A DNA stretch of 22,472 bases from a virus, in the IMG/VR virus record IMGVR_UViG_3300023228_000006, positions 1-22,472 of that record; one strand, given 5' to 3'. The translations under genes were made by a program, and so were the position numbers. The notes under the pieces were generated by a model. It did not search any database. It saw only the letters and a program-made list of their open reading frames with translations, and was not told where the DNA came from. This document shows, piece by piece, positions 3,834 to 22,472 of this stretch. Position 1 is the stretch's first letter, and each line of letters opens with the position of its first letter.

Positions 3834-3855
3834 CCGAACGGGAAAGAGGAGCTTC

Positions 3856-4391: not shown

Positions 4392-4411
4392 GCCCCGCCC
4401 CTTCTCGCACC

Positions 4412-4441
4412 CGGCCCGCTGGCTACTCTGCCGGCGGGCCG
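4412..4441. terminator. Large hairpin between convergent operons (bidirectional terminator)
   Basis: CGGCCCGCTGGC (4412-4423) pairs with GCCGGCGGGCCG (4430-4441) over 12 bp with one G-U pair and a 6-base loop. It lies 20 bases after the + strand operon ends, and the loop contains the stop codon of the last - strand gene. CTTCCGTT follows on the + strand; the T-tract is weak. The position at the head-on junction of two operons suggests termination from both sides. Confidence 0.6.
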
Positions 4442-5605: not shown

Positions 5606-5610
5606 TTGAA

Positions 5611-5847
5611 TTACCCTCTTGCTTTCTGCGCTTCGAGTGTTGCCAGCCGTTCGCCGTGGTTGTTGATGGCCGTCCACATCTCCTTGCGGCTCGTGTCGAG
5701 TTCCTTGATTTGTCCCTCGGCCGCCTGCGTACGCGCCTCAATGGAACCCTTAAAAATCCCCCAATAGAGCGCCTGACCGATGAGTCCCGAGAGGATGCCA
5801 ACCACCCCGGTTAAAGCGATGATCCATGCGGTTGTTTCTGCGTTCAT
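5611..5847 (-). CDS. Membrane-anchored coiled-coil protein of the lysis cassette
   Basis: A 78-residue protein with one strong membrane segment (about 7-31, AWIIALTGVVGILSGLIGQAL) followed by a cytoplasmic or periplasmic helix rich in charged residues (about 36-75) that looks like a coiled coil. GGAGG is four bases before the ATG. It is the first gene of the lysis cassette, five bases before the DUF2778-like gene. Such proteins are often annotated as holin or haemolysin XhlA-like, although XhlA usually has the reverse order (coil first). A holin or antiholin role is plausible but not shown. The 104-base gap upstream holds TTGACA in this orientation (5883-5888) but no convincing -10. Confidence 0.6.
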   Translation of the reverse strand: MNAETTAWIIALTGVVGILSGLIGQALYWGIFKGSIEARTQAAEGQIKELDTSRKEMWTAINNHGERLATLEAQKARG

Positions 5848-5951
5848 GCTGCCTCCGCCGGCGAACTAACGTCTACATTCTCTGTCAATTCCAAGCCGTT
5901 TTTAGCTGTCCAAAGGCTGCGAAATGACAAAATCACGCATTGGCCCCTGTA

Positions 5952-6281
5952 TCAGCTTGGCCACGCCGGCAGCGCCGGGATCGTGCCCGCGCCGGTGGAT
6001 ACAATGACGCGGAGCGCGGCCCTGTAAGTCTTCCACGTGTCAGGCAAGACAATTCCCGACTCGTAGCTGCGCGCGACCTGTACGTCGGAGGCGGAGAGCA
6101 ATTGCCGCGCTTGGGCTTTGAGCGCTGCCTGCGCTGCAAGCGTTGCGATAGGAACGTAAGCAGGGAACGCCGCGGCGAGCTCGGCGTCGGTTGCGTAATG
6201 ATCGAAGACGGTTTCCCCGGCCTCTTCCATGCCGGTGTCGATAGCTCTCATGCTTTGACCGCTGTTTGAGTATGCGAACAT
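5952..6281 (-). CDS. Tail fiber assembly-like protein
   Basis: The 109-residue product ends in the pattern seen in tail fiber assembly and related chaperones: a helix with ARQLLSASDVQVARSYESG, then PDTWKTYRAALRVIV, and a final WP. In that family the C-terminal helices help fold and trimerise the fiber. The gene directly follows the fiber gene, nine bases away; its AAGGAG site overlaps the fiber gene's stop. This placement supports the assignment. The N-terminal half (MFAYSNSGQSMRAID) is not distinctive. Confidence 0.62.
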   Translation of the reverse strand: MFAYSNSGQSMRAIDTGMEEAGETVFDHYATDAELAAAFPAYVPIATLAAQAALKAQARQLLSASDVQVARSYESGIVLPDTWKTYRAALRVIVSTGAGTIPALPAWPS

Positions 6282-6290
6282 GGTTTCTCC

Positions 6291-7403
6291 TTAGAGGTTG
6301 TCTTCCCACCCGAGGCAGGAGAGCACAAGCGCACTGTTGTTGCTGGCGTAATAGAGATAGAGCGATTCAAGCCCGAGCGAGAAAAGAATGTTCTCGTAGA
6401 GCGAACTAGACTGGATCATCACGGGCGGTGGATTGGTTGAACTTGACGACCCGCCGTAGCTCCCGTTCGGGGCGAAGATCACCTGGCCACCGTTGTTGCT
6501 CACGTATGCGGAAGCGGTAACCGCCACCGCAGTGGAAGGTACGAAACTGGACAGGTACACATAGGACCACGAGGGGGTAGTCGCGCTGCCCGCAGAGCCA
6601 GAGGCCATAACAGGCATGGCTGAGAGGTTTCCACCGCCGACCTTGTACTGCACCCGTCGTCCGTACTGCTGGAAGGCAAGGGGATAGGCCGTAGATGGGC
6701 CGGTGCGAATCCAGCCGACACGGGCCTTGAATGTATAGCCGCTCGGCAAAGTCGGCGAGGTTGAGGAGAGCGAGACAAGTCCGGAGACTGTTGAGCCGTT
6801 ATAGATCAGCCATACGCTGTACCAGGTGGAAGTCGCCGCAGAGCCGGTGTCGAGGCCGTTTGCTTTGCTGGCGCTGACAGAGATCGAAGCGGCCACGCTC
6901 CGAGCCGTGAAGTAGTTGTTGTTCGCGTCTTCCAGCACGAGCTCGTCGGCGGATACGCTCACGGCATAGCTGGACCCGGTTGCGGACAGGGCGAGGTTGC
7001 GAAAAGCACCGACAGTAGAAGCCCCGCTCACTACAGGATTGAGAAGCACGAAGTTTGTGCCGTCGTAAAAAACATCGCTGACCATACCGCTGACTACGCG
7101 AGCGGCGACTTTCGCGCCGTTCACGTACTGCATGAGGCTTATGGCCCCGAGGCCGGAGACGTTCAACGTGTTTGAGCCTGTCGTTCCGGCGGCATTGAAG
7201 GTCACGCTGAACCGCTGGTTGACGGCGTAGGCCGTGAGCGCCGGTGCGGGAGTCAAGGTGAACGCAGGGGCAGCGCCGCCCGTTGTGAAGGCGGTAGCGC
7301 CTTGGCCCTGCATATCGCTGTAAATCTGGGCAAAGGCAGAGTTGACGCAGGTGCGCATTGTGAGGCCCGAGACGCCCGCTGCGATGGAAGGAACAACGCT
7401 CAT
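6291..7403 (-). CDS. Tail fiber / receptor-binding protein candidate
   Basis: This 370-residue protein is rich in Ser, Thr, Gly, Ala and Tyr and has the beta-rich texture of fibers. Residues about 50-125 (AYAVNQRFSVTFNAAGTTG, then SLMQYVNGAKV and DVFYDGTNFVLLNP) follow a pattern common in phage fiber N-terminal domains. The remaining two thirds contain many aromatic and Ser-rich beta strands and probably hold the exposed binding region. The gene is preceded by the tail-tip gene (one base between them) and followed by the assembly-like gene, a normal late order. The receptor cannot be predicted. Confidence 0.72.
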   Translation of the reverse strand: MSVVPSIAAGVSGLTMRTCVNSAFAQIYSDMQGQGATAFTTGGAAPAFTLTPAPALTAYAVNQRFSVTFNAAGTTGSNTLNVSGLGAISLMQYVNGAKVAARVVSGMVSDVFYDGTNFVLLNPVVSGASTVGAFRNLALSATGSSYAVSVSADELVLEDANNNYFTARSVAASISVSASKANGLDTGSAATSTWYSVWLIYNGSTVSGLVSLSSTSPTLPSGYTFKARVGWIRTGPSTAYPLAFQQYGRRVQYKVGGGNLSAMPVMASGSAGSATTPSWSYVYLSSFVPSTAVAVTASAYVSNNGGQVIFAPNGSYGGSSSSTNPPPVMIQSSSLYENILFSLGLESLYLYYASNNSALVLSCLGWEDNL

Positions 7404-7404
7404 A

Positions 7405-10326: not shown

Positions 10327-10781
10327 TCGGGCCTCGCTTTCGCCCAGGGCGACCAGATGCCTACGAACCGATCGGCAAGGTCACAATTTGAAACGGCGTC
10401 GTCGAGAATCACCATGCCAGCCTGTTTGAAGCTGTGAATGATGGCCGGCCATTCAACGACGATGGCTCCATGCGCCGGGTTGCGCCCGAACTGGAACATT
10501 GCGATGTCGCCCGGTTGAGCCGGGCCGTCGATCTTGGCCGCGAACTGCTCAACGATATTGAGGTAAACCGGCTCGTCTTGATGGAGAAACCAGTCGGCAA
10601 CATATTCGCCAGGATCAACGTGGGGAAGAACCCCGGCGCGCTCGTAAACCTCAGCAAGGATCATGCCGCAATCCACACCAGCGCCCTTGATGCGCGCATG
10701 GTGATGGTATGGAGTCCCAACCCAAGACCGGGCCTCCTCGACGACGGCCTCACGCTGCAACATCTCATCAAGCGCGGTCAT
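10323..10781 (-). CDS. NlpC/P60-family tail assembly peptidase
   Basis: At 152 residues it is a single NlpC/P60 cysteine peptidase domain. The nucleophile is C38 in GVDCGMIL, the catalytic His is H104 in AHGAIVV, and H116 in IIHSF can serve as the third polar residue. PGDIAMFQFGRNP (90-102) is the usual strand before the active-site His. In siphophages and gene transfer agents this protein sits in the tail tip, helps tail assembly (lambda K role) and may trim peptidoglycan at DNA entry. It is coupled by ATGA overlaps to the DUF2163 gene before it and the tail-tip gene after it. Confidence 0.88.
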   Translation of the reverse strand: MTALDEMLQREAVVEEARSWVGTPYHHHARIKGAGVDCGMILAEVYERAGVLPHVDPGEYVADWFLHQDEPVYLNIVEQFAAKIDGPAQPGDIAMFQFGRNPAHGAIVVEWPAIIHSFKQAGMVILDDAVSNCDLADRFVGIWSPWAKARPE

Positions 10782-11635
10782 AGGCTGGTGCTCGTTTCTG
10801 GCACGTAGGGGAAGCCCTGATAGTTGTTCGAGTTGTTATAGGCCGCGCAAGCCGCCGCTGTGCGGGCGCAACCGGGGTAGATGGTGAAGGTGTCACCCGC
10901 CGAGGGCGTAGCGGGTAGCGGAACGGTAAAGGTGATGGCTCCGCCTGAGAGTTGGCTTACCGTCCGACGCGAGCCGGATGTTACCCCGCTCGTCATAACC
11001 ACGACCCCGAGAGCGTAGGAGCCTGTAATCGTCGTTGGAAGGCTGGAGGCTGACGGGGCCGCCCCAACCGTTCCGGCAACCGTGAGGCTCGGCAAGCTGA
11101 TTCCGCAGCCGCTATCACCAAAGCAGTTCGCGCAACCCGGCTGAAAGAGAATCCGGGGCATCTGGTACTGCAAAAGCTCGAGATCTGACTTGACGTGCAA
11201 GACAACCTGAGTCGAGGACGGATCAACGCCCGCGCAGTTGCCCTCAAACAGGACGACGGAACCCATGGACGTATCGCCGGGGTACGCGGATAAAACGCGC
11301 TCCACCCGCACCCTGGCCGCGTCAAATGCGCCGTTGATGGCCGCGAGGCTCATATTCGTTCCCATGAGTTGAGCGGAGCCGCCGCACAGCAGCGTCAAGT
11401 CCAGCGTGTCTACTTCGGTGCCCCTGGCGTTGCGGATAGCCCCGCGCTTCACGAGCGGTTGACCCCCATTGTCCAGTGATGAAGTGAACAGGAGGCTATT
11501 CAAGGTCAGAGGAATGTCCGCATTCGTCCAGCGGTAGATTCCGCCCGGTTGGAGCGTGATCGTGTAGCAGTCGGCCATGGTGAAGACGCCGCCGGTTGCC
11601 AGATACGCGATGAGTGCTGGAGTGGCGTACTTCAT
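10778..11635 (-). CDS. DUF2163 / phage BR0599-domain tail protein (GTA gp13-like)
   Basis: The 285-residue product has the DUF2163 N-terminal part (CYTITLQPGGIYRWTNADIPL, about 23-43) and the C-terminal domain ending in YPGCARTAAACAAYNNSNN and QGFPYVPE, the usual ending of the GTA-type family. A Cys cluster (PGCANCFGDSGCG, about 166-178) is also characteristic and may bind a metal; an iron-sulfur or metal site is known in the GTA hub protein. The protein would be a hub of the distal tail. ATGA overlaps join it to the DUF2460 and NlpC/P60 genes. Confidence 0.85.
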   Translation of the reverse strand: MKYATPALIAYLATGGVFTMADCYTITLQPGGIYRWTNADIPLTLNSLLFTSSLDNGGQPLVKRGAIRNARGTEVDTLDLTLLCGGSAQLMGTNMSLAAINGAFDAARVRVERVLSAYPGDTSMGSVVLFEGNCAGVDPSSTQVVLHVKSDLELLQYQMPRILFQPGCANCFGDSGCGISLPSLTVAGTVGAAPSASSLPTTITGSYALGVVVMTSGVTSGSRRTVSQLSGGAITFTVPLPATPSAGDTFTIYPGCARTAAACAAYNNSNNYQGFPYVPETSTSL

Positions 11636-12231
11636 TTGAGCGTTATCACCTTGACCGTTCCGCCGTCCCAGGCCAGTTGCATGAAGCGCTTGAAGGTCAT
11701 GGTGTCGTCGTCAAACCGGCAGATGCGGGCGAACTGGCCAGTCCAGGTGATCGGGAGGCCGTTGGCCGGGGCAGTCGTGAAGGTCACCACGCCGGTTGTT
11801 GCGTTGTAGCTCACGCCGGAAGTCTGCAAGACGCCGTTGACGTAGATCGCCGCGGACTGGATGATTCCCGCCGAATAACCCTCGTTGTCGACCAGTTGGA
11901 AGACGGTCTGCGCGCCGGTGCCAGTGCCGAACGGGCAGGCTGTTGGGCTTCCGTTCACTGGGTCGATGAAATAGAAGGAATCCCAAGCCCCGCGCATGGT
12001 GTTGAAGAAACTGGCAAGCTGCAGTAGCTCATCGGAGAGCGTCTTGGCGCTGAAACCGGCTTGGCGCACGAAGTTCAACGTCCATTCATAAGTCCACCGC
12101 GGGACGGTCCAGAAGGTAGCCCGTTGCTCTTTACCGCTGGCGCTCGTCTGGATCATCGTCGAGAACTGCGATGTGCGGTCAACCTCGATGTCCAGGCCCT
12201 TCAACGTCGATGGGAAAAGCAAGCTGCTCAT
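11632..12231 (-). CDS. DUF2460 distal tail protein (GTA gp12-like)
   Basis: The 199-residue protein opens with FPSTLKGLDIEVDRTSQFST and PRWTYEWTLNFV, the DUF2460 signature, followed by a FYFIDPVNG turn and a C-terminal beta segment (ARICRFDDDTMTFKRF). Family members form the distal tail ring that joins the tail tube to the tip. It is the first of four tail-tip genes that overlap by ATGA, but the tape measure gene that should come directly before it is separated by about 1.7 kb of cargo genes. Confidence 0.87.
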   Translation of the reverse strand: MSSLLFPSTLKGLDIEVDRTSQFSTMIQTSASGKEQRATFWTVPRWTYEWTLNFVRQAGFSAKTLSDELLQLASFFNTMRGAWDSFYFIDPVNGSPTACPFGTGTGAQTVFQLVDNEGYSAGIIQSAAIYVNGVLQTSGVSYNATTGVVTFTTAPANGLPITWTGQFARICRFDDDTMTFKRFMQLAWDGGTVKVITLK

Positions 12232-12269
12232 GCGCCGTCCTCGGGTGTTCCGCGTCGAACAAAAGCTAC

Positions 12270-12295
12270 ATACTGTTGCATTTCAGACACAGTAT
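12270..12295. promoter_or_regulatory. Perfect inverted repeat upstream of the tail-tip operon (candidate operator)
   Basis: ATACTGT and ACAGTAT form a 7-bp perfect inverted repeat with a 12-base spacer, in the 182-base divergent gap. On the - strand the right arm overlaps TATACT, a possible -10 for restarting transcription into DUF2460, but no good -35 is seen. No T-run makes it a terminator. It may be an operator or a regulator site. Confidence 0.35.
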
Positions 12296-12366
12296 AGAGC
12301 CGAATCGGGGCAAAAAGCCGGCCCCGGAGGCTCTGAAATGAGAAATCGAGAAAGTCGCAATTTTGT

Positions 12367-12407
12367 TTACATTTCCTCTTGACTTTGTAAGCAATAATGA
12401 TTACATT
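12367..12407 (+). promoter_or_regulatory. hicAB promoter with candidate HicB operator
   Basis: TTGACT (12379-12384), a 17-base spacer and TACATT (12402-12407) make a good sigma70-type promoter. The spacer and -10 carry the inverted pair TGTAA (12386-12390) and TTACA (12401-12405), and TTACATT occurs twice (12367-12373 and 12401-12407). These repeats suit autoregulation by the DNA-binding HicB antitoxin. Transcription would start almost at the hicA ATG. Confidence 0.6.
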
Positions 12408-12413
12408 AGATAC

Positions 12414-12590
12414 ATGAAGAGCAGCGAGTTCAAGCGGTGGCTGACAGCACAGGGGGCAACATTCGAGGGCGCGAAAGGCTCCCATCTGAAGGTGAAACTG
12501 AACGGCAAAACATCCTTCCTGCCGATGCACTCCAAAGAACTCAAGACCGGCCTGGTCGAAGGCATCAAAAAACAGCTAGGGTTGAAATAG
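12414..12590 (+). CDS. hicA: HicA toxin (mRNA interferase)
   Basis: The 58-residue protein is a typical HicA: a short helix (SSEFKRWLTAQGA), then the double-stranded-RNA-binding-like beta strands with the catalytic His in KGSHLKV (H24), and the closing FLPMHSKELKTGLVEGIKKQLGL. HicA proteins cleave mRNA and stop growth unless neutralised by HicB. ATG 12414 is chosen because family members begin at MKSSEF; the open frame further upstream is promoter DNA. No ribosome site precedes this ATG and the -10 is only six bases away, so the mRNA may be leaderless. The antitoxin gene follows after eight bases. Confidence 0.92.
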   Translation: MKSSEFKRWLTAQGATFEGAKGSHLKVKLNGKTSFLPMHSKELKTGLVEGIKKQLGLK

Positions 12591-12598
12591 GAGGATTC

Positions 12599-13018
12599 AT
12601 GTTGCGCTATCCAGCACATCTCGAACCACAGAAGGAAGGCGGGTACGTCGTCACCTTCCCCGATATTCCCGAGGCAATCACCCAGGGCGAAGACGTTGAA
12701 GATGCTCTACACCACGCCGCCGACGTTCTGGAATCGGCCTTGGATTACTACATCGAGGAGGGCCTTACGATCCCCGCGCCCTCCAAACTCAAGCGCGGCC
12801 AGCACGTAGTTGAACTGCCAGCCAGCTACGCGGCGAAGATCCTGCTCTTGAACGAAATGGCAACACAGAAGGTCAGACCGGCAGAACTGGCGCGGCGCAT
12901 GAAGGTCACCCGGCAGGAAGTCAACCGGCTCGTGGACTGGCGCCACGCGTCGAAGATCGACGGGATCGCCGGCGCGCTCAAGGCGCTGGGCAAGACTATG
13001 GAGATTAGGGCGGTTTAG
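12599..13018 (+). CDS. hicB: HicB antitoxin with HTH domain
   Basis: The 139-residue partner of HicA has the HicB-like N-terminal fold (RYPAHLEPQKEGGYVVTFPDIPEAITQGED, about 3-32, then DALHHAADVLESALDYYIEEG) that masks the toxin. Its C-terminal DNA-binding part (about 84-125) contains PAELARRMKVTRQEVNRLVD, a helix-turn-helix of Xre type rather than ribbon-helix-helix. AGGAGG lies four bases before ATG 12599, far stronger than the hicA start, so antitoxin synthesis should exceed toxin synthesis. The pair could aid phage or prophage maintenance or exclude other phages. Confidence 0.9.
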   Translation: MLRYPAHLEPQKEGGYVVTFPDIPEAITQGEDVEDALHHAADVLESALDYYIEEGLTIPAPSKLKRGQHVVELPASYAAKILLLNEMATQKVRPAELARRMKVTRQEVNRLVDWRHASKIDGIAGALKALGKTMEIRAV

Positions 13019-13269
13019 TTGGGCTTGCGGTCGGGGTCTTCTGGGTCGTGGCTTCCCAGGCGCGCATCGCGCAATCGGAGCGTCCTTGCACTTGCAGAAC
13101 GGTCAGAGGTAATGCGCCTTTCCTCTTTGAACTCCTTGATTAGGGACGCTGGGCACTCCATAGCCTGAAGGCAAGCAGCAATCGAGGTTCGCACGTCTTC
13201 GAGCTCTCTGAGAAGTTCTTTTTCGCGGGCCATCAGGCGGCTTCTAGTAACCGCGTATTTGGGTGGCAT
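13015..13269 (-). CDS. Small charged helical hypothetical protein
   Basis: An 84-residue product from ATG 13269 (ATG 13323 would add 18 residues; neither start has a clear ribosome site). It is highly charged, with a predicted coiled coil (SRLMAREKELLRELEDVRTSIAACL) and an Arg/Asp-rich tail (RLRDARLGSHDPEDPDRKP). It is not recognised. Its stop overlaps the hicB stop on the opposite strand. It runs in the late-gene direction, so it may be cargo read from the late transcript. Upstream open frame to 13626 is rejected because it is antisense to the secreted protein gene. Confidence 0.5.
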   Translation of the reverse strand: MPPKYAVTRSRLMAREKELLRELEDVRTSIAACLQAMECPASLIKEFKEERRITSDRSASARTLRLRDARLGSHDPEDPDRKPN

Positions 13270-13420
13270 GGGGTCATTTTGCGCCAAAACGCCCGCTTTT
13301 TGCAAATGCGGTATGGGTTGCATCTTGTTGTATGGGTTGGTGTTTTGTGCGCGAAACTGAGGCGAAAGGTTGACGCGCTGGCGGGTTGTGCTGTGAAGTA
13401 GGGGTGTAAGGAGTACGACC

Positions 13421-13888
13421 ATGAAAGCGTTCGCTGCTGTTGTGTTGCTGATTTTTTCTGCTAGTTTGACGTTTGCCCAGAACAGTGCTTGGGAATACAG
13501 TGTTGATAAGAACGCGATGGAAACCAACAGAAGTACCGAGTTTGCAATGACGTACGGCGGAAATACAACCCTTGTGGTCCGCTGCAAAACCAGGTGCGAA
13601 GTGTATTTGAAATTAAAAGGCAACATCTTTGAGGATCAGACTTCAGTCCGAGTAAAGTTCAACTCTTCAACGCCGAAACGCTTTTCGGTTTCAAGGGGAG
13701 AGGGGTCGGACTCTCTATTCTTTACTCAGCCTATAGAGTTCCTTCGTGCCGTTCGGGATAACGGGGGATACGTCGTCATCGAATACTCCCCATACGAGAA
13801 AATACCTGACACTGACACACTGCGGGTGTGGAACTTGCCGCCCACAATACTGGCGCGGTTGAGCGGGAAGCGACTAGCCTTAAAATAG
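13421..13888 (+). CDS. Secreted VasI/VMAP-like protein (cargo gene)
   Basis: The 155-residue product has a clear signal peptide (KAFAAVVLLIFSASLTFA, cleavage near residue 19-20). The mature part follows the pattern of the VasI/VMAP-like family found with type VI secretion loci and elsewhere: an early W, SVDKNAMETN, a LVVRCKTRCEVYLKL strand pair, SVRVKF, LFFTQPIEFLRAV, then VVIEYSPYEK and a final LPPTILARL helix. Function of the family is not defined; this copy has no secretion genes around it. AAGGAG lies seven bases before the ATG. A hand count of 13441-13560 gives 55 G/C in 120 bases, visibly lower than its neighbours, which suggests separate acquisition. It ends eight bases from the tape measure stop. 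Confidence 0.65.
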   Translation: MKAFAAVVLLIFSASLTFAQNSAWEYSVDKNAMETNRSTEFAMTYGGNTTLVVRCKTRCEVYLKLKGNIFEDQTSVRVKFNSSTPKRFSVSRGEGSDSLFFTQPIEFLRAVRDNGGYVVIEYSPYEKIPDTDTLRVWNLPPTILARLSGKRLALK

Positions 13889-13896
13889 CTGCTCGT

Positions 13897-16455
13897 CTAG
13901 CCCCGCCGGTTCTTCGCCGCCTCTTTGATAGCCGCCATGATGTTCCCTTGGTTCTGCTGGAAGAATGCCTTTGAATCAACTCCACCGTGGATATGGAGGT
14001 GCGTGTCGCCCCCGCCGCCATTCCCTCCGATCCCCCCGCCCGCTATGGCGCTACGCAACGGGTTGGCGATGCTGGCCGGTAGGATCATCTCGCTTTTGTG
14101 GATCTGTGCAATCTGGTCAGACGGGACGTTATCCCAGCCGCCGGCCGCTGAGGACATGTGCATCCCGAGAGCGATTACAGAAGCCACAACGCCAGCCGCA
14201 ACAGCGGGCGCAAGGAACGGACCCACGACGGGAATGGCGCTGATAGATGCCCAGGCTGATGCCGCCGCCTTCCAGCCCTCAATGGCAATCCACTTGATGC
14301 CCTCAGCGAGCTTGAGAGCCATGGTTTTCAGGGATGCCCATATTTCGGTTGCAACACGAGTGGCAGACCCGGCAAGGGTAGACCCGGTCTTCGCGCCCTC
14401 GACGGCTACATGGTGCGCCCCTGTCACTGTGTCGCTGGCCATCGTCTTTGCATCAGCCGCCGTCTGTACGCCCGTGCGAACCCCGGTCTGCGCCGTTGTT
14501 GCGGTGGTCTTGGCGACTTCGACAGAGAGGTGCCTTGCCAGCATTTTGACCATCTGCTGAATAACGAAGTCCATGGCTGACCCCATGATGGACTTGAAGG
14601 CTTGCCCGAAACTCTGGGTTCCCTTAATCATCCCGGAGATCCCAGAACTGAAACCGGAGGTCAGGCCGTTGACCCAAGTCTGAGCGGTTTTCAGATGGTC
14701 TGCCGCCTCCTTTTTGTCAATCACGGCCGATTCCGCCGCCGCCCTTGTTTCTTCGGCGGTTTTGAGCTTCATCAGCTTCGCAAACTCCTCAGCATCGCCC
14801 GCGTAGAGAATTTTCTTGATCTGGATTGCCCGCTCTTCATCGCTCAGAACAGCGGCAATATAGGCATGTTCCGCCTGTAAAAGCTGTTGTTTGGTGATGA
14901 TTCCCGCCGCCGCATCATCCCGCGCCAGTTGGACCGTCTTTGCCGCCGCCGCATTCTGGAGAGCCAGGCTTTCGTCGATAGCCCGCGCCCCGTCTGCGCG
15001 CCGCTGCGCCCCCTGCTCTTTGGTTGCCTCGGTCATCTTGGCCTGTGCGGCTGCATACTCCGGCCCCATGCCGTTGTAGACGGCCCTGAGACGAGCAACC
15101 TCATTGGTAGCCAATTGGACGCGCTCCGCACTACCCTTTGCGGCTGCACTGTATTTGCGCTCAAAGCCTTGCTCGGAGGCCTTCTCGCCTTCCTCGGCTC
15201 CCTTGCGGGTGAGTTTGTCGATCTCGTTTTGAATATCGGCGAGGGCTTTCGCCCCCAAGCCGCCGATGGTGGCCATCGTCTGCCAATATTCGATTTCGCG
15301 CTGGGTGCTCCACGTAAACCAGTTCTCCTTTAAGGCCTTCTGCGCATCGAGGTTTTCCTTGAGCGCGGCCATCTGCTCGGACGACGGGTCTTTGTCTTCC
15401 TTGCTGTCTTTCTTTGCCGCCTCGGTTCTTGCGTTGCCGGAGCGCGCATCGTGCTCAGTTTTTACAGTTTTCGTGTCGGCGGCATATTTCTGGAGGATGT
15501 TGAGAAGCTCGCGCTGTGCGTTTACCTGCCGATTCAGCGATTCAACAGAGCCATTTTCGAGTGTTACATTCTTGGCTAAAAGTGCCGTTTTTGCCTGCTC
15601 AAACTCGTTATAAGCCCCCGCGCTTTTCGACCCCGCGCCAGAAAAAGCGTCCTGCGCTTTTTGAAGGTTTGCGAAAATTTCCGACTCACGGCTGAGCTTC
15701 GCGGTCAGCAAATCGTGCGCCTCGCCCTGCTTATTTACGTCTGTCTGAAGCCCCTCATATTCAAGTCGGAAGGATTCAAGAGACGCTTTCTGCCCCGCCG
15801 CGCCACTACCAAACTGAAACCAATGTACCGCCATGCCATCAAAAACCGAGTTGGCGATTTTGGAAAGGGATTCAAACTGCTCGAAAAGCTCATTCATGGA
15901 GGCGTGGTCAATTAGCTCCAGCTTGATACGGAGCGCCTCCATCTGGTTCCCGGCAAGCTCCGCCGTCTTTTCCTGTGCCTCCAGGAGCTTGTCGTTTAGG
16001 GAGTTGAACGAGCGATTGCTCTCGATTCCCGCTTCTTTTTCGGTTGCGGCGAGCTTGCCGGATTCCTCGCGGAACTCCATCAGTTTTTCGACGCCCTTGG
16101 CAATCCATTCGATCATCTCCATGATGGCCAAGGGAGCGAAGGCCATCGACAGAGCCTGACCGACGCCGGGGAGCGTGGCGACGAAGCCACCGACAGCGCG
16201 GTTCATGCCGAGCATGTGGGCAGCGTGGCGGGCCTCGGTCTTACTGAAGTCACCCTCCATGCTTTCGGCGGCTTCCTTTGACTGCCCAGCCATGCTGTCG
16301 AACGAGGAGGCAGAGGCGGCGGTCAGGGGAGCAAAGGACGCGGCCATCTTCGCCGTGGAGTCCTTAACCCCGCTGGTGGCGTTGTTCAGCCCATCCATCA
16401 GCCCGTCTATTTGGGCTGTGATTTTTACACTGATCTCGCCCCCGTCGTCTGCCAT
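13897..16455 (-). CDS. Tail tape measure protein
   Basis: At 852 residues it is by far the longest helical late protein. It contains long coiled-coil regions rich in Ala, Glu, Lys and Gln, hydrophobic segments near about 90-120 (VGGFVATLPGVGQALSMAFAPLAIMEMI), and a C-terminal membrane-like region (AISAIPVVGPFLAPAVAAGVV type) followed by HKSEMILPASIANPL, an ending common in tape measure proteins. The family sets tail length and helps DNA cross the host membrane. AGGAGG eight bases or less before ATG 16455 overlaps the stop of the frameshifted chaperone gene, which is the standard place for a tape measure gene. It is separated from the DUF2460 gene by the cargo island. Confidence 0.9.
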   Translation of the reverse strand: MADDGGEISVKITAQIDGLMDGLNNATSGVKDSTAKMAASFAPLTAASASSFDSMAGQSKEAAESMEGDFSKTEARHAAHMLGMNRAVGGFVATLPGVGQALSMAFAPLAIMEMIEWIAKGVEKLMEFREESGKLAATEKEAGIESNRSFNSLNDKLLEAQEKTAELAGNQMEALRIKLELIDHASMNELFEQFESLSKIANSVFDGMAVHWFQFGSGAAGQKASLESFRLEYEGLQTDVNKQGEAHDLLTAKLSRESEIFANLQKAQDAFSGAGSKSAGAYNEFEQAKTALLAKNVTLENGSVESLNRQVNAQRELLNILQKYAADTKTVKTEHDARSGNARTEAAKKDSKEDKDPSSEQMAALKENLDAQKALKENWFTWSTQREIEYWQTMATIGGLGAKALADIQNEIDKLTRKGAEEGEKASEQGFERKYSAAAKGSAERVQLATNEVARLRAVYNGMGPEYAAAQAKMTEATKEQGAQRRADGARAIDESLALQNAAAAKTVQLARDDAAAGIITKQQLLQAEHAYIAAVLSDEERAIQIKKILYAGDAEEFAKLMKLKTAEETRAAAESAVIDKKEAADHLKTAQTWVNGLTSGFSSGISGMIKGTQSFGQAFKSIMGSAMDFVIQQMVKMLARHLSVEVAKTTATTAQTGVRTGVQTAADAKTMASDTVTGAHHVAVEGAKTGSTLAGSATRVATEIWASLKTMALKLAEGIKWIAIEGWKAAASAWASISAIPVVGPFLAPAVAAGVVASVIALGMHMSSAAGGWDNVPSDQIAQIHKSEMILPASIANPLRSAIAGGGIGGNGGGGDTHLHIHGGVDSKAFFQQNQGNIMAAIKEAAKNRRG

Positions 16456-16463
16456 GCCGCCTC

Positions 16464-17032
16464 CTAGAATCCGACGATGCCAGCCTCAAGTGTGGCTAAA
16501 GCGTCATCCTCGGTCATCGTGCTGGTTGCTTTTTCGTCTTTGCCGCCACACAAGTACGCCTTGACCATGATGTGAACCGGCGGGCAGACCTTCCAATAAT
16601 CCAGAAGGTCCAAAATGTCCGGCCATGGAGTTGCATCGACAATGCGCGCCGTCCAGGTGGTTGCGGTGATGATGAGCCCGTACAGTTCGCCCCAGTTCAG
16701 CGGCTCCGCTTCACCTTCTGGGGCGCGCCTTCCCCCTTGAGGCCGGTGACCTCCGCAACGCCTTCGACGGCTTTCTGGATCTCCGCAAAAGGCATCGTCT
16801 CGACCGCTTCGAGGGTCAGATTGGGGTACTTGTTCGACAGCGAAAGGTGAACCAGATCGCAGCAGTGACCAACCATCTCAGGCATGGCCTTCATGGGCGA
16901 GATTGTGCCGGCCTGAAGCTGGCCGTTGATTTCGTCGATAGCTGCCAGCTTGGCAGACGCCTGGTGACGCAACTGCCCAGCGGTGAAGGGTTGAAGATCG
17001 TACTCGGTGCCTTGAATCGTGACGGTGCTCAT
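16464..17032 (-). CDS. Frameshifted tail assembly chaperone (GT-like fusion by -1 shift)
   Basis: Between the stop of the chaperone (16697) and the tape measure start there is a -1 frame open from upstream of 16740 to a TAG at 16464-16466. It encodes a plausible protein segment (GELYGLIITATTWTARI, then DILDLLDYWKVCPPVHIMVK and EDDALATLEAGIVGF) but has no ATG, GTG or TTG near its beginning, so it needs a -1 frameshift from the gene before it. If the shift occurs at GGGGGAA (16730-16736) the product has 101 residues from the zero frame plus 88 from the -1 frame, 189 in all. This is the arrangement of lambda G and GT and of most siphophages. The open frame is seen directly; the exact slip site is inferred. 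Confidence 0.72.
16697..17032 (-). CDS. Tail assembly chaperone (lambda G-like), unshifted product
   Basis: The 111-residue protein starts at ATG 17032, with GGAGG eight bases upstream; ATG 17047 in the same frame is less well placed. It begins with STVTIQGTEYDLQPFTAGQL, has a helical body (LAAIDEINGQLQAGTI, then CCDLVHLSLSNKYP and EIQKAVEGVAEVTGL), and ends in a basic tail (PQKVKRSR). Size, charge and position between the major tail protein and the tape measure gene are those of G-type chaperones, which coat the tape measure protein before tube assembly. A -1 frame extension follows. Confidence 0.8.
   Translation of the reverse strand: MSTVTIQGTEYDLQPFTAGQLRHQASAKLAAIDEINGQLQAGTISPMKAMPEMVGHCCDLVHLSLSNKYPNLTLEAVETMPFAEIQKAVEGVAEVTGLKGEGAPQKVKRSR
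16730..16736 (-). other. Candidate -1 ribosomal frameshift site (GGGGGAA)
   Basis: Read on the - strand, the zero-frame codons are AAG GGG GAA GGC. A -1 slip lets the GGG tRNA pair again perfectly; the GAA tRNA would pair with GGA through one G-U. It lies 31 bases before the zero-frame stop and inside the overlap with the -1 frame. It is the best homopolymeric run in the overlap, but it is not the classic GGGAAAG of lambda. Confidence 0.45.
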
Positions 17033-17062
17033 GCTTTCGGCCTCCATGGCTGAGATGGGAAC

Positions 17063-17084
17063 GCGCCGCCCTCTCGAACGGCGC
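17063..17084 (-). terminator. Hairpin downstream of the major tail protein gene
   Basis: GCGCCG and CGGCGC form a 6-bp GC stem around a 10-base loop, seven bases after the major tail protein stop on the - strand. GTTCCC follows, a poor T-tract. It may lower readthrough into the chaperone gene or protect the mRNA end. Confidence 0.4.
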
Positions 17085-17091
17085 ATCCGGG

Positions 17092-17823
17092 TTAGGAGTT
17101 GGTGTAGACGTTGATGACGTTGTTGTTTGTGTCGGTGAAGGCCTGGAATTCCAGATCGACTTCGGTGTAATCGTCCTGCTTGCCCGCCAGTGACAGTTTC
17201 GGGAAGACGACCGCCCACAGCTTGTAACCGAACTGCTTGCCGCCATAGGTATTGAAGGCGTTCAACTGGAAGATGGTGGCCTGCCCCATCAGAACGTTGT
17301 TCAGATCGATGTTGTTGCCGGTGACCATGGTGTAGGTGTAATACAAGCCCACCTGGTGCGTGGTGTTGGCAGCGGCGAAGGTGTAGACGCCCAACGCCGT
17401 GACGCTGTACTGGCCGGTAGCCGGGGCGCTGGCGACAACAGACAGCCACTTGCCAGCGGTGTAGTCATACACGCCGCCATCCTGCACGAAGGTTGCGCCG
17501 TTGAGGGCCGTGACCTGGTACGGGGTGCTGGGGATGTTGCTGATTTCGTTGTTGGCCGCGGCGGTCTGCCCGGTGCTGGTGGTCGAACCGGCCAGAATGG
17601 CAGCGATGAGCCCAGCCTGAATGCGGCCAGACTTCGCCTTGCCGGTGATTTTGCCCTTACCGAGCGCAACATCCTCGGGGAAGGCATACGAGCCGACAAG
17701 CTCCTTCACATCGCGGCTGATGTCGATGGAGATGTCCTTCAGGGTGCCGACGTTGACAGGGGTAGGATTTGCGCCGGGCGGGACGATGAACAGTTGGCCG
17801 ACGCCGAAGTTGTACTGAGCCAC
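17092..17823 (-). CDS. Major tail (tube) protein
   Basis: The 243-residue product starts with AQYNFGVGQLFIVPPGANPTP and has the layout of siphophage tail tube proteins: strand (DISIDISRDVKELVG), loop, long helix (SGRIQAGLIAAILAG), a variable middle of about 90 residues (about 95-185) that may form an outward domain, and a C-terminal strand set (WAVVFPKLSLAGKQDDYTEVDLEFQAFTD). Location just before the assembly chaperone supports the role. The start is GTG 17823 with only a weak purine box (GCGAG), surprising for a protein needed in many copies. Confidence 0.85.
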   Translation of the reverse strand: MAQYNFGVGQLFIVPPGANPTPVNVGTLKDISIDISRDVKELVGSYAFPEDVALGKGKITGKAKSGRIQAGLIAAILAGSTTSTGQTAAANNEISNIPSTPYQVTALNGATFVQDGGVYDYTAGKWLSVVASAPATGQYSVTALGVYTFAAANTTHQVGLYYTYTMVTGNNIDLNNVLMGQATIFQLNAFNTYGGKQFGYKLWAVVFPKLSLAGKQDDYTEVDLEFQAFTDTNNNVINVYTNS

Positions 17824-17882
17824 GGTGGTACTCGCTTTCTGGCGTGGCCCCCGGCTTCACCGAAGGCCGCCCGGTTGAAGGG

Positions 17883-18137
17883 TTAGAGGATGGCGGTCAG
17901 GCGGGCCTTGAGTTCTTCCTTGGCCGCAAAGAGCTTGTTGTGGATCTCGGTATCCAGCGCCGTGAGGTTCTGGCGGAGATCGTTAAACCACGTCTCGACT
18001 TCCTTCTCCCAGGCCGCCGTTTCCTTTTCGGCGTCCACCTTGACGGTTTGGGCTGCATCCTCGGCATAGATAGCCGGGGCATCAGCAAGAGTCTTTGCAG
18101 CTTGGGTTACCTTGGTGGTTTCATCCGTGTCGGCCAT
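17883..18137 (-). CDS. Small helical hypothetical protein of the tail module
   Basis: An 84-residue acidic protein made almost wholly of predicted amphipathic helices (VKVDAEKETAAWEKEVETWFNDLRQNLTALDTEIHNKL and further, within about 30-80). It is not recognised. It lies between the tail terminator and major tail protein genes. A strong AGGAGG site stands nine bases before the ATG and sits in the loop of a hairpin. It might be a minor structural or assembly protein. Confidence 0.65.
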   Translation of the reverse strand: MADTDETTKVTQAAKTLADAPAIYAEDAAQTVKVDAEKETAAWEKEVETWFNDLRQNLTALDTEIHNKLFAAKEELKARLTAIL

Positions 18138-18141
18138 TGAT

Positions 18142-18161
18142 ACCGCCCTCCTTTAGGCGGT
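18142..18161 (-). promoter_or_regulatory. Hairpin that presents the ribosome site in its loop
   Basis: On the - strand ACCGCC pairs with GGCGGT around the loop TAAAGGAG, which holds both the stop codon of the tail terminator gene and the ribosome site of the next gene. The perfect 6-bp stem may expose the site or make initiation depend on upstream translation. Confidence 0.4.
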
Positions 18162-18629
18162 CGTTACAATCTCCAGGGGAATCTCTGCGATGCCCTGGGT
18201 TTGAAAAAGTCCCTCATCCTTGACGATGGTTCCGAATATCCGGCAAGACGATACAAGGCCGCCCAGCGTTGTATGCGGCGCTTGCCCGTCATTGGCGAAC
18301 GGCCCCAGTTGTGCAGCTTCTCCCGGCGTCATTTCCATGGCGGCCTCAAGAGCGGTGATGAGTTGGTTTTGCAAGGTACTCGGCGCTGCCGTCGGGTCTG
18401 CATCATGCCGGGTGTACAGCACCAGCTTGGGGCGCAATGTCCAGACGGTAGGCTGCCGGCGGTCACCGCCTGCCTGTTCGTCACCCGTTGCCAGGAATAG
18501 CGCGGGCTGCATCTCGGGCGGCGTGTCGGCGTAGCTTACCCACTGGCGAGAGCATGGCCCAGCGAAGCCGGCGACGGCGGCCAGGCGGGCGTTGAGCGCG
18601 ACAAAGATTGCCTCACGGTTGAGAGCCAT
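18153..18629 (-). CDS. Tail terminator / tail completion protein
   Basis: The 158-residue product has the order typical of tail terminator proteins: N-terminal helix (NREAIFVALNARLAAV), QWVSYADTPPEMQPALFLATGDEQ, a strand (TLRPKLVLYTR), a helix with LQNQLITALEAAM, and a final strand pair ending in IPLEIVTT. It lies after the HK97-gp10-like gene and before the major tail protein, as lambda U does. It would cap the tail tube and join it to the head. Its ATG overlaps the previous stop by one base. Confidence 0.75.
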   Translation of the reverse strand: MALNREAIFVALNARLAAVAGFAGPCSRQWVSYADTPPEMQPALFLATGDEQAGGDRRQPTVWTLRPKLVLYTRHDADPTAAPSTLQNQLITALEAAMEMTPGEAAQLGPFANDGQAPHTTLGGLVSSCRIFGTIVKDEGLFQTQGIAEIPLEIVTTA

Positions 18630-19108
18630 TAGGCTGTACCTCCGAGTGCGCTTGCCAGCGTGGCGCGGATTTCGTCCTTCATATCCGCAAGAGCTGGCGT
18701 GAGGAATGGCCGAGCGTCGTAGTGCTTCGTTCCCGGCGGGTGTTTTGCCGCATACTTAGCCGCGGCAAGATCGCTCATAGACCTGGGCCCACCCCTGGCG
18801 CCAGCGCCAACCTTGCGGTCAAAGCCAAGTTCCCAATAACGGCCATAGGGTACGTTCGTGCCAACGCTGCTGCTAAAGTTCGTCCCATCCTCGGTGAATT
18901 TTTCGTTTGTGGACCGGCGCAAACGGCCAGAGCGCACGTTGAGAGATTCCCCGGAGAGATAGAAGTCCTTCACCCGCGCCAGCAGGTTCAAGCCAAGCCG
19001 ATGCACACTCAACCCGACGCGCTTTTGGCGGTCCTTGCCGATGGCGGCCAGCTTGGCTTGAACAAGCTCCGAACCGACGATCTGTCCGACAATCAAGCCC
19101 TCGCTCAT
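18629..19108 (-). CDS. HK97 gp10-like head-tail joining protein
   Basis: At 159 residues it shows the family pattern: a start helix (VQAKLAAIGKDRQKRVGLSVHRLGLNLLARVKDF), then SLNVRSGRLRRST, a strand with SSSVGTNVPYGRYWELGF, and a final RPFLTPALADMKDEI helix. Members act at the head-tail interface in siphophages. ATG 19108 overlaps the connector stop (ATGA); the open frame to 19258 is a shadow of the connector gene. Confidence 0.85.
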   Translation of the reverse strand: MSEGLIVGQIVGSELVQAKLAAIGKDRQKRVGLSVHRLGLNLLARVKDFYLSGESLNVRSGRLRRSTNEKFTEDGTNFSSSVGTNVPYGRYWELGFDRKVGAGARGGPRSMSDLAAAKYAAKHPPGTKHYDARPFLTPALADMKDEIRATLASALGGTA

Positions 19109-19674
19109 CCGACGACCTTCTTCCAGTTCTTGAGGCTGTCGAGCGCCCAGGCCGGGATGGAGAGTTGCGAGAAGGAAACCGTCTCCGCGCCGCCTAAACT
19201 CTTGCTCACTTGGCCGATGCGGTCTGCCTCTTTGTATCCCCAGGCGACGATGCGACAAGCCACATGCTCAAGGTCAAACGGAATCTTGGTAAACCCGGCG
19301 GTATAGTTGAGGACGACGTTCATAACCCCGCGATTGAACCGTGAGCAACCGGCCAATGGCGCGCCGCCGGTAGGCGGAATGAGGCTGATAGTCCGCCGGC
19401 CATCGCAGACGGCGTTAGCTGTCACGTCTACGCCGTCCACGAGTACTTGAGTGATGGCCGTAACCGGGTAGTTGGCGGTCATGATCTGTGCGCCGCCGGT
19501 CCCGCTCAGCTTTTCGGTGTAAGAAGCCGAGAGGATGTCACGGTTGAGGTTGCTTTTGATCCATGCGCTGACAGCGGTAATCATGTACGCCAGCTTGACG
19601 TCTGCTGTCGTCGCCGCGAGGCCGAGGTATAGCTTCACGTTTGTAAGTGTCGTCAGATCGCCGGGGTCAGCCAT
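19105..19674 (-). CDS. Head-tail connector (gp6-like adaptor)
   Basis: The 189-residue protein begins with DLTTLTNVKLYLGL and helices with DVKLAYMITAVSAWIKSNLNRDI, the usual opening of gp6-like adaptor proteins, followed by beta strands (YPVTAITQVLVDGVDV) and a C-terminal helix pair (PFDLEHVACRIVAWGYKEAD). In siphophages this protein docks on the portal at the head-tail junction. It lies in the expected place, between capsid and gp10-like genes. The ribosome site before ATG 19674 is weak, and the start is three bases after the previous stop. Confidence 0.8.
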   Translation of the reverse strand: MADPGDLTTLTNVKLYLGLAATTADVKLAYMITAVSAWIKSNLNRDILSASYTEKLSGTGGAQIMTANYPVTAITQVLVDGVDVTANAVCDGRRTISLIPPTGGAPLAGCSRFNRGVMNVVLNYTAGFTKIPFDLEHVACRIVAWGYKEADRIGQVSKSLGGAETVSFSQLSIPAWALDSLKNWKKVVG

Positions 19675-19677
19675 GGA

Positions 19678-20010
19678 TTAAACTGCTTCCGCTTCCGTGT
19701 ACGCTTCGTCTGCCTCAGCCTTGCGGGCCGCGGCCACTTCCTTTACCAGCGCGGGCCGGTCCTGAGTCGCATCCAAGCCCAGGCGTACCGCCTCGGCCGT
19801 CAGAACTTCCTTAGTCCATTTCGCCGGGTTGCCGGTGGGCGTCGGCGCGGATTCTGCTACAACCGCGGGCGCTGGTGCTGTAGTGGTGAAGCCATGGCTA
19901 GCCAGATCGGCTATCGCTTCATTCGGAACGTCAACCGCGCCGTCTGCATCGGGCGTGAAGGTTTCCCCGCCCCAACTGCACCCGCCGCCGTCTTTGTGAT
20001 AGAGCTTCAT
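19678..20010 (-). CDS. Small hypothetical protein of the head-tail region
   Basis: A 110-residue protein from ATG 20010 (AGAGGA five bases upstream). It has a short N-terminal beta-like domain (KLYHKDGGGCSWGGETFTPDADGAVDVPNEAIADLASHGF, about 2-41), an Ala/Pro/Thr linker (about 42-62), and a C-terminal helical part (KEVLTAEAVRLGLDATQDRPALVKEVAAARKAE). The first domain matches a common small phage protein found just after capsid genes. Role not established. A hairpin separates it from the capsid gene. Confidence 0.72.
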   Translation of the reverse strand: MKLYHKDGGGCSWGGETFTPDADGAVDVPNEAIADLASHGFTTTAPAPAVVAESAPTPTGNPAKWTKEVLTAEAVRLGLDATQDRPALVKEVAAARKAEADEAYTEAEAV

Positions 20011-20046
20011 GGTGTCCTCTGACTTGGTTCGTGTGCTTTGTGAAGA

Positions 20047-20080
20047 GGGGCATGGAGGACTAAGCGCCCTGCCATGCCCC
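20047..20080 (-). terminator. Hairpin downstream of the major capsid gene
   Basis: GGGGCATGG and CCATGCCCC make a perfect 9-bp stem with a 16-base loop, 17 bases past the capsid stop on the - strand. TCTTC follows, so the T-tract is weak. A leaky terminator or mRNA stabiliser after the most highly needed gene is likely. Confidence 0.55.
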
Positions 20081-20096
20081 ACGGTTGAGCCTTCGC

Positions 20097-21572
20097 TTAG
20101 GCGTTGGCGACGTTGTAGAGCTTGAGCAGCGAGAACGGCGCGTAGTGCTGGAGAACTTCGTCCGCGTACACGCCGTACTCGAACTTGCGGCTCTTGAAAG
20201 GCCACTGGAGGCTGTAGTACTCCTTGCGCGTCTTCACCTGGAACACGTTGCCGACGCCATTCAGCGGGTACGGAATTTCGCGGCAGTAGCCGAGAATCGT
20301 ACCGGCGGGCATATTCGGGTGAACCCTGACGCGAATCAGAGTGTTGGTGATCGGGTTGAGGTACGAACCGATGGTGGCGCCAGCAGCCAGCCCGGAGACT
20401 CCGCCCTTGTCGTCCATAACGAACCGGAAGAGGGGCGCGCCGCCGTTGCCGATGCAGAGCTTGTTGATGGTGCGGATTCCGGCGCTCGAAACCAGCAGAT
20501 CGGAAGGCCCGATGCGGCTGGTGTCGAACATATTCTGCAGGAGGTTATTGATTTCCTGCACGCCGCCCGCGCCGTCTGCGGTCAGCCCAGTACCGGTGCC
20601 GGCTGTGCCGGTGGCCAAGGCAACGCTGATTGCGTTGTTGGCAACCTTGGCGAAGGAGAGCATACCGTCGTAGTTGTAGACGGCATCCTTCGAGTAGTCG
20701 GCTGCGGTGAGGGCGGAGGCAAGCTGGCGGGTTCCGTTCAGAGGAGCGGTAACCGCCAGGCTGTTGATTGAGGTAATGAACTCCAGATGCTCAGCGCCAG
20801 CCGCGCCGATGAACCACGCGTAGGCAACCGCGCCCTCAACTGGAGCCACAGAGCAGAATAGCGTCTGCCCGAGGGTGACGGCCTGGGTAGCCTCTGCCGA
20901 CTTCTGAGCCGCGCCGCCGTTGATGGTGTCGCTGCTACCGTCCGTGTTGGTCTTGGTGATCTGGCCAATAACGCCATTCGCCAAGCTAGACCGGCTGTTG
21001 CCCTGGTGGGTCAGCGCAACGCAGATAACGCCGTAGGTCAAGGCCGGCAGGGTTGCGCCGCTTCCGGAGGCAGAGAGCGACGGGGTAGGAGTGGTGCCGA
21101 GCGCCAGGCTGGCGTTTCCGCCGAGCAGCATCCCCTCTTCCTGAATCATCAGGGAGCGGAGCAAGCCGAGGGTTGCGCGGGCCTTGGGGTCGTCGAAGTT
21201 CTGAGCGGCATAATCCGCTTCGAACGAAACGTAGTCTTCCAGCCCGAGGCCGACATACGCGGCGGTATAGCTGGCCGTAGAGGTCGAAGTCAGCGCACCG
21301 CGGTTCGATTCCGAAACGCCGGGGTGGGTGTTTCCAACGTTGATGCCGGTGATCGCCTTCCAGCGCGTAGCGGTATCTCCACCGCCGCCCACGCGGGGAA
21401 TGTCATTGCGCAGCATGGTCATTGCGGCGACAAACGGGTAGAGGGCCAGCGCGGGCGCTTGCAGATCGTAGCCTACAAGGCCGGTGGCCTGAGTGAAAGC
21501 CTTGCTCACCACATCGGTACTGTTTTCGGTGAGGGACTTCTTAACGAGGTCCAGCGTTTCTTGCATATTCAT
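20097..21572 (-). CDS. Major capsid protein (HK97-fold)
   Basis: The 491-residue protein has the features of an HK97-type capsid protein: an N-terminal helix (about 1-35), LYPFVAAMTMLRNDIPRV, an extended loop with GVSESNRGALTST, a spine helix (DPKARATLGLLRSLMIQEEGMLLGG, about 128-152), then, after about residue 285, GGVQEINNLLQNMFD, a strand with RVHPNMPAGTILGYCREI and the C-terminal EYGVYADEVLQHYAPFSL. A segment of about 125 residues (about 155-280) with SVAPVEGAVAYAWFIG looks like an inserted Ig/fibronectin-like domain. AGGAGG is 10 bases before the ATG and lies in a small hairpin. ATG 21566 is an alternative start two codons in. Confidence 0.85.
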   Translation of the reverse strand: MNMQETLDLVKKSLTENSTDVVSKAFTQATGLVGYDLQAPALALYPFVAAMTMLRNDIPRVGGGGDTATRWKAITGINVGNTHPGVSESNRGALTSTSTASYTAAYVGLGLEDYVSFEADYAAQNFDDPKARATLGLLRSLMIQEEGMLLGGNASLALGTTPTPSLSASGSGATLPALTYGVICVALTHQGNSRSSLANGVIGQITKTNTDGSSDTINGGAAQKSAEATQAVTLGQTLFCSVAPVEGAVAYAWFIGAAGAEHLEFITSINSLAVTAPLNGTRQLASALTAADYSKDAVYNYDGMLSFAKVANNAISVALATGTAGTGTGLTADGAGGVQEINNLLQNMFDTSRIGPSDLLVSSAGIRTINKLCIGNGGAPLFRFVMDDKGGVSGLAAGATIGSYLNPITNTLIRVRVHPNMPAGTILGYCREIPYPLNGVGNVFQVKTRKEYYSLQWPFKSRKFEYGVYADEVLQHYAPFSLLKLYNVANA

Positions 21573-21607: not shown

Positions 21608-22350
21608 TTAGGCGCGGGTGTGAATGGTTGGCCCGGACGCGAACACTTTCTTAATCGAGTCCAAGGGGTCTGTGGGTTCGGCCTCAGCACCCGCCGCTTT
21701 TGACACGTCTCCCTCTTTGCCCTTTTCCGGCTGCATGAGGTAGCCTTTTGCCGTCATTGTCTTGACGATCTCGTCAAGCGCGGCCTGGTGTTCCTTGGCT
21801 TCGCTTTCGAGCTTTGCAACTTGATCCTTGAAGCCGTCGCGCTCTGCGCTTACCTTGGCGACTTCATCCGTCAACCCGGCAACCTTGGCGACGGTGTCCT
21901 CATCCGCAACAGCGCCGTCGGACTTTCCGGCGTCGTCGTAGCCGCTGTCTTTCATGCAATCCGCGGCCTTCTGGATGTGGTCATGAGCTTGGGCGAGCTT
22001 GCCCTTGGTGGCCGCTGAGAACTTCGCGCCCTTCTTCTCGATAGGGTCGTCACCCTTGGCGGTGTCGGCCAGGGCAACCACTTCGACAACCGGGGCAGGA
22101 TCGGGCGGCGCCAGCGATGCCAGCAGTTCGTTCGTCTCCTCTTCGGTCATGGCCTTGAGGATGTCCGCGCCGGCGGCCAGCCATGCGCGCATCTGAGCCG
22201 GTAGCGGCGAATTGTCGCCCTCATATTGCGCTTCGTAGCTGGCGTCCTGAGCCTGATAGCCCAGCGACGCCAGCAACTCGGCGAACCGTGAGACGCCATA
22301 TAGGCCCTTTCTCACGGCGTCACCGGCGGGGGAAGCCGTCTCGATCTTGG
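21608..22350 (-). pseudogene. 3' part of a head-morphogenesis (protease/scaffold-like) gene cut by a group II intron
   Basis: The exon part encodes about 247 residues. It includes KGLYGVSRFAELLASLGY (near the intron), YEGDNSPLPAQMRAWLAAGADILKAM, KFSAATKGKLAQAHDHIQKAADCM and a coiled coil (DTVAKVAGLTDEVAKVSAERDGFKDQVAKLESEAKEHQA), a layout I know from C-terminal parts of phage head protease/scaffold proteins encoded just upstream of capsid genes. The apparent ATG at 22363 lies 13 bases inside the intron and has no ribosome site; codons upstream of it soon meet a stop (22403-22405). The genuine N-terminal part should be on the far side of the intron. The intron runs antisense to this gene, so splicing cannot repair its mRNA. 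Protease versus scaffold is uncertain. Confidence 0.7.
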
Positions 22351-22472
22351 GTGCGCCCAGCATGGGCGCGTTCTTACGGGTGCGAGTCCCGTCGTAAGCT
22401 GGTCACAGTAAACGAAGTGAAGCGCAACTGCATGAGGGTGACCGAGTGTGGGGAGGAAGCGTGGATCGAAAC
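22351..22472 (+). mobile_element. Group II intron, 5' end (continues past the window)
   Basis: The sequence from 22351 starts with GTGCGCCC, which fits the GUGYG 5' consensus of group II introns. GCGCCC (22353-22358) and GGGCGC (22364-22369) form a perfect hairpin; CTTACG (22373-22378) and CGTAAG (22393-22398) enclose TGCGAGT; GGTCAC (22401-22406) pairs with GTGACC (22438-22443). The stretch with ACGAAGTGAAGC, GAGGGTGACCGAGTG and GGGAGGAAGCG resembles domain I of bacterial group II introns that carry a reverse transcriptase. The intron is transcribed left to right, opposite to the phage late genes. Its reverse transcriptase and 3' end are outside the window. The class cannot be set from 122 bases. 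Confidence 0.78.

Follow-up and report, generated by a model that had tools for sequence, protein, structure and literature searches.

A putative group IIC intron lies antisense within the head protease/scaffold gene of a probable Acidobacteriaceae prophage

Group II introns of class IIC normally occupy untranslated places behind terminators (PMC4424553; PMC8919778). Target recognition by their ribonucleoproteins involves IBS1, IBS3 and a DNA hairpin; integration is of limited specificity and occurs at multiple sites (PMC3898094). Merk, Jones and Eddy (2025; PMC12350094) reported group II matches in 9,229 IMG/VR genomes, approximately 0.06%, and the statement of the initial annotation that these introns are uncommon in tailed phages needs qualifying by these figures. 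In the parts of that study cited here, the introns are either coding-region introns presumed to splice or IIC introns behind a terminator, and phage introns are taken as active because they interrupt conserved genes. The intron of OQ555808 in the same study shows a D1D4-3 match followed by a D1D4-1 match, belongs to class IIC and lies behind a terminator.

The window analysed here is the whole of a viral contig (IMGVR_UViG_3300023228_000006, termed G000; 22,472 bases), which terminates within an intron. Its relevant features are the following.

17092..19674, minus strand: head-tail adaptor, tail completion, tail terminator and putative tail tube genes, all intact ORFs
20097..21572, minus strand: putative major capsid gene, so named by position; adjoins the interrupted gene (PHROG 13692, unnamed)
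21608..22350, minus strand: head protease/scaffold gene split by the intron, C-terminal (scaffold-like) half
22314..22339, plus strand: weak hairpin with imperfect pairing (ACGGC...GCCGT), 11 nt upstream of the insertion
22347..22350, plus strand: IBS1 TTGG of the 5' exon, complementary to EBS1 CCAA of the phage's intron subfamily
22351..22472, plus strand: first 122 nt of the putative group IIC intron, GTGCGCCCAGCATGGGCGCG..., after which the contig stops
22352..22370, plus strand: first 5' helix of the intron (alignment pairs 2-20 to 9-13), nearly invariant
22361..22363, minus strand: in-frame ATG for the truncated head gene, located on the complementary strand of the intron
22376..22392, plus strand: second helix, ACGGG...CCCGT, with compensatory changes at three pairs

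The intron starts at position 22351, where the initial annotation had placed it, and its identity is secured by longer relatives and by a copy in a bacterial MAG. The plus-strand sequence from this position through to the contig end is GTGCGCCCAGCATGGGCGCGTTCTTACGGGTGCGAGTCCCGT..., and the initial GTGCG fits a GUGYG-type group II 5' end accompanied by domain I helices. Because only 122 nt of the intron are present, the window alone gave no Rfam match at the gathering score; at a relaxed threshold the 122 nt matched group-II-D1D4-3 with 16 bits only. Other relaxed-threshold matches (CRISPR-DR9, Magnesium-II and fiv_FSE) were at chance level and were rejected. Other viral contigs were found using a 20-nt pattern from the intron start, and L003-L006 among them carry full group-II-D1D4-3 matches of 89-108 bits directly after the pattern, with D1D4-1 next in two. 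The 122 nt align to L005 at 86.9% identity, and the L005 intron reaches 108 bits against RF02001. A further locus from a 17-nt pattern scan (L132) looked by eye like a chance match in GC-rich DNA and was left unused.

The helices proposed in the initial annotation hold as well, owing to compensatory changes across eleven sequences and not to energy. RNAalifold predicted 34 pairs for eleven non-identical intron sequences, 11 of them with compensatory changes. Taken by itself, the 122-nt stretch does not fold with unusual stability (z -0.8), and the helices rest, therefore, on covariation. The first 5' helix, being nearly invariant, is without covariation support of its own.

The nearest full-length copy of the intron (L097, in genome G152) is 1833 nt long (minus strand, 3403 to 1571); it shows D1D4-3 and D1D4-1 matches and has the 3' end CCCCCTATGCCGAT. 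It encodes a 500-aa protein with RVT_1 and GIIM domains (TIGR04416, 405.7 bits) and no endonuclease domain. The best solved relative of this reverse transcriptase (RT) is that of GsI-IIC (6ar1), which at 432.8 bits leads the other solved group II RTs by a wide margin. Because the RT of L097 is closest to the GsI-IIC enzyme and has no endonuclease domain, the intron is assigned by sequence to class IIC, a classification whose RT basis is read from L097 and not from the phage copy. The RT is visible in this close copy; the window itself contains none, and all phage contigs break within the intron.

EBS1 was located between GGGCGAGCGGGC and CCGCGAAGC, with the pairing read by eye. EBS1 and the 5' exon covary among the introns (ACATC/GATGT, AACG/CGTT, CAAA/TTTG, CAAGC/GCTTG and TCATC/GATGA). 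The window ends before EBS1, and the sequence CCAA was read from the MAG copy L037. In all MAG copies, and likewise in the phage, the first base of the 3' exon (IBS3) is T; EBS3 was not located.

Introns of this kind were also seen in other phage surroundings. The phage contig IMGVR_UViG_3300048044_000038 (L126:1460-3284) carries the 5' end of a IIC-like intron together with a 469-aa RT ORF; the intron lies behind a hairpin, between tail genes, and L126 shares its metagenome with L031, a contig described below. An ORF-less intron of approximately 470 nt (L005:2900-3372, minus strand) is found on a Mu-like phage contig between head genes, behind a hairpin and sense to the genes.

A scan of the GTDB genomes with a 42-nt intron pattern found one genome only, the Acidobacteriaceae MAG AM-2014_bin-0823 (G001), with the pattern at four contig ends. 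Comparison with the whole 122 nt gave 14 matches in this MAG, representing at least 14 copies, in two subfamilies of 4 and 10. The four copies of the first subfamily align over 98-122 nt at 99-100% identity, and one of them (G001:C216:74-195) is 100% identical to the full 122 nt of the window; the ten copies of the second are 91-93% identical to it. Matching introns are present in 14 of 300 sampled genomes of the same family, and G152, with the full-length copy L097, is among them. Nearly all intron 5' ends of the MAG (L036-L053, L061-L075) lie at contig ends, which indicates that the introns fragment its assembly.

The surroundings of the host copies differ from the phage site. All 14 of the 5' copies in the MAG follow strong hairpins with T-rich tails, and most intron relatives on viral contigs are likewise behind hairpins. 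The hairpin at the phage site has an energy of -8.4 kcal/mol (as DNA), compared with -8.1 to -19.4 at host sites, and a hairpin as good is found at 14 of 187 TTGG sites of the window and at 5.6% of random positions. As a stand-in for the IIC terminator hairpin it is marginal, and suggestive at most. Because the exon letters fit but the hairpin is poor, the phage copy would be an off-target (ectopic) insertion.

The minus-strand frame of the head gene crosses the junction into the intron up to an ATG at 22363 (ORF 21608-22363). This ATG, four codons inside the intron, is the only in-frame one after the upstream stop, and no Shine-Dalgarno sequence was seen before it by eye. Among viral contigs there are 16 relatives of the ORF. 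The window shares stretches of 6.2 and 8.4 kb at 100% identity with two of them, 3300038463_000014 and 3300026456_000003; both show the same junction, also 100% identical, and they end approximately 111 and 125 nt into the intron. The remaining 14 lack the intron, and their head ORF is uninterrupted at the insertion place, extending the frame upstream by approximately 187 more residues where the contig is long enough.

The full head ORF of a relative (L024) matches PHROG head maturation proteases (9.7e-8 at best). A collection of annotated phages gave two weak matches to the head gene only (Brevundimonas phages, 26% of the query). The position of the gene fits such a function, with portal and Mu-F-like genes on L107 and the putative capsid gene following it. 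In an alignment of eight intact relatives, a conserved N-terminal part and a conserved C-terminal part are separated by a variable linker (approximately residues 155-197), and the insertion falls in this low-complexity linker, which separates the protease from the scaffold part. The predicted structure of the intact head protein (8 sequences) had a mean pLDDT of 35 and was unusable for fold matching. In L012, L015 and L030, the coding stretch GAGGAGGCCCAAGTGGCT precedes the linker; a Shine-Dalgarno-like sequence and an in-frame GTG at the linker start might allow internal initiation of a scaffold protein of its own, or may arise by chance from acidic codons.

A search with the N-terminal part of the gene found the far flank on two contigs, 3300028084_000010 (L030) and 3300048044_000012 (L031). 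Both end approximately 125 nt beyond the N-terminal gene half, in the reverse complement of the intron 3' end, which comprises domain V, CCGGATGCGGACCCGCTTGTCCGG, and CCCCCCTATGCCGAT and ends in CCGAT. This 3' end is 99% identical to four MAG copies. It was recognised by its match to other intron copies, and no Rfam D5 match scored there at the gathering threshold. A one-base difference in domain V separates the phage form (L030:6535-6660, GCGGACCC) from that of the four MAG copies (L061-L064, GCGGTCCC); the phage form is that seen in L097.

When the flanks are joined at the intron borders, the gene reads ...VEAPVDPA-T-KIETASPAGD..., in frame and seamless, and aligns gap-free at the junction to the intron-free VEAATETA-V-KVEAASPAQGD. 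On a relative of 40,323 bp (G303), the window corresponds to approximately 2,400-21,452 and the contig of L030 (G002) to approximately 21,490-39,962, with no overlap. Judged from these alignments, the window and G002 are complementary halves divided at the intron. The two contigs come from different samples and do not overlap, and we infer that both flanks represent one insertion in one strain. The central proposal of the initial annotation, a group II intron antisense within a head protease/scaffold gene, is thus borne out. The domain V and 3' end (AY) that it had listed for checking are present (...CCCCTATGCCGAT), on other contigs than the window, and the N-terminal half it described as missing lies on the far flank and joins the window in frame. 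It had further considered that related phages might carry the same bases within an intact head gene; the opposite was found, intact genes without these bases.

The far end of G002 lies in a gene with CHB_HEX_C_1 and LolA-like domains and no PHROG match. Homologues of this gene occur in 192 of 200 genomes of the MAG's family, the best (69%) in the intron-bearing MAG itself. An integrase-like ORF, recognised by sequence, is located at the left end of G303 and G304, and homologues of the phage capsid protein are found in 12 of 300 genomes of the family, although the intron-bearing MAG has none. Because of this host-type end, the integrase-like ORF and the capsid homologues, the data suit a temperate phage integrated in an Acidobacteriaceae, the probable host. 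A search for att sites, comparing the far end of G002 with the ends of relatives, gave no common core.

Three other observations concern the phage genome. In the capsid region (20071-20900), 833 aligned bases are 99% identical to G303, whereas the surroundings show 73-88% identity, a peak that, on this comparison, is attributed to recent recombination. A HicB-type antitoxin-like ORF, identified by eye, lies on the opposite strand within the tail module (12437-13018, plus strand). A protein with a Tlde1/L,D-transpeptidase-like domain is encoded near the tail-fibre end of the module (5240-5677, minus strand).

We consider off-target antisense retrotransposition of a IIC intron, from a subfamily resident in Acidobacteriaceae, that disabled the head gene of an integrated prophage to be the best account of the locus, with a probability of about 0.78. 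The source would be a mobile group IIC intron subfamily of these bacteria. A ribonucleoprotein consisting of intron RNA and a maturase/RT lacking an endonuclease domain would have entered the genome of a temperate phage by reverse splicing at CTTGG^T, on the other strand from its head protease/scaffold gene and through the pairing of EBS1 CCAA with IBS1 TTGG and the IBS3 T, and the intron would then have been copied into DNA; its mobility would thus be RNA-based. Unlike the host copies, the landing place offers no real terminator hairpin, although the weak one possibly helped. The head gene would be split at the linker between its protease and scaffold parts. Because the intron is antisense, the head-gene mRNA carries the intron complement and cannot be spliced. 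The phage is, for this reason, most likely a defective prophage, persisting in the integrated state. Among the three consequences considered in the initial annotation, a defective prophage is the best supported; a new start supplied by the intron, with the ATG at 22363 as candidate, is possible. The identical sequence in three samples fits a repeatedly sampled lysogen or strain, without proving it.

A viable phage, in which the protease and scaffold halves work separately and the scaffold starts at the intron ATG (22363) or at a later codon, appears unlikely. The cut in a variable, low-complexity linker between conserved parts would favour such an arrangement, as would the in-frame ATG and the fact that both gene halves remain ORFs, the N-terminal half reading 42 codons into the intron. 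In lambda, separate scaffold products are made from protease-scaffold genes. The persistence of sequence identical over 6-8 kb across at least three samples is also compatible with a viable phage whose gene is split. Against this, the ATG lacks a Shine-Dalgarno sequence and stands in the loop of a strong hairpin, and the host-like DNA at the end of the far flank agrees with an integrated prophage. In targetron practice, moreover, an antisense insertion disrupts the gene unconditionally (PMC3898094). It is rather improbable that the fusion gene has become two separately expressed proteins, with the scaffold start codon taken from the conserved 5' hairpin of the intron; if true, a selfish RNA would have remodelled a phage capsid operon without splicing.

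An assembly chimera, in which host-intron reads were misjoined to the phage contig, is mostly refuted and very improbable. The contig does stop 122 nt into a multicopy repeat, where assemblers stop, and the MAG copies break likewise, but the junction is identical in three contigs from different metagenomes, the far flank carries the corresponding 3' end of the intron precisely where the complementary break falls, with the joined gene in frame, and the exon IBS1 and IBS3 letters fit the intron subfamily. That the intron is sense in a plus-strand transcript (an antisense RNA or an unknown gene) and spliced from it is likewise very improbable. A 96-codon plus-strand frame is open from 22183 to the contig end, but it is the minus strand that carries the conserved gene, to which relatives align from end to end, and IIC introns normally lie in untranslated places behind terminators (PMC4424553; PMC8919778).

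Under the preferred reading, an ectopic antisense insertion into an integrated prophage, the locus documents the passage of a terminator-targeting IIC intron from host to phage or in the reverse direction, the phage and bacterial copies being 100% identical across the 122 nt. It would also indicate that IIC introns can insert elsewhere than behind terminators and disrupt a structural gene of a phage, and that antisense phage introns, not being removable by splicing, belong in a separate count. Were the split phage viable, the locus would represent an intron-driven gene fission.

Group II introns in phages (reported in 2025; PMC12350094, in the parts cited here) and IIC introns are already known. 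The intron resembles those of class IIC (IEP class C, with a GsI-IIC-type RT; terminator-targeting B.h.I1 type) in its 5' end, D1-D4 model matches, domain V, 3' end, short IBS1/IBS3 and an endonuclease-less RT closest to GsI-IIC, and in the position of the host copies behind terminator hairpins. Unlike typical IIC introns, the phage copy is antisense in a coding gene, with a weak hairpin upstream at best. As a group II intron in a tailed phage it is comparable to the introns of PMC12350094, especially that of OQ555808, whose pair of D1D4-3 and D1D4-1 matches is shared by L004, L006 and L097; in the text of that study, as far as it is cited here, antisense insertion in a structural gene is not described. 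A functional parallel is provided by antisense targetron insertions (PMC3898094), in which an antisense intron likewise means unconditional gene disruption, but the present insertion is natural, apparently of class IIC, and in a phage. The new detail is its antisense, in-gene, off-terminator place in a structural gene, together with the identification of an identical bacterial copy.
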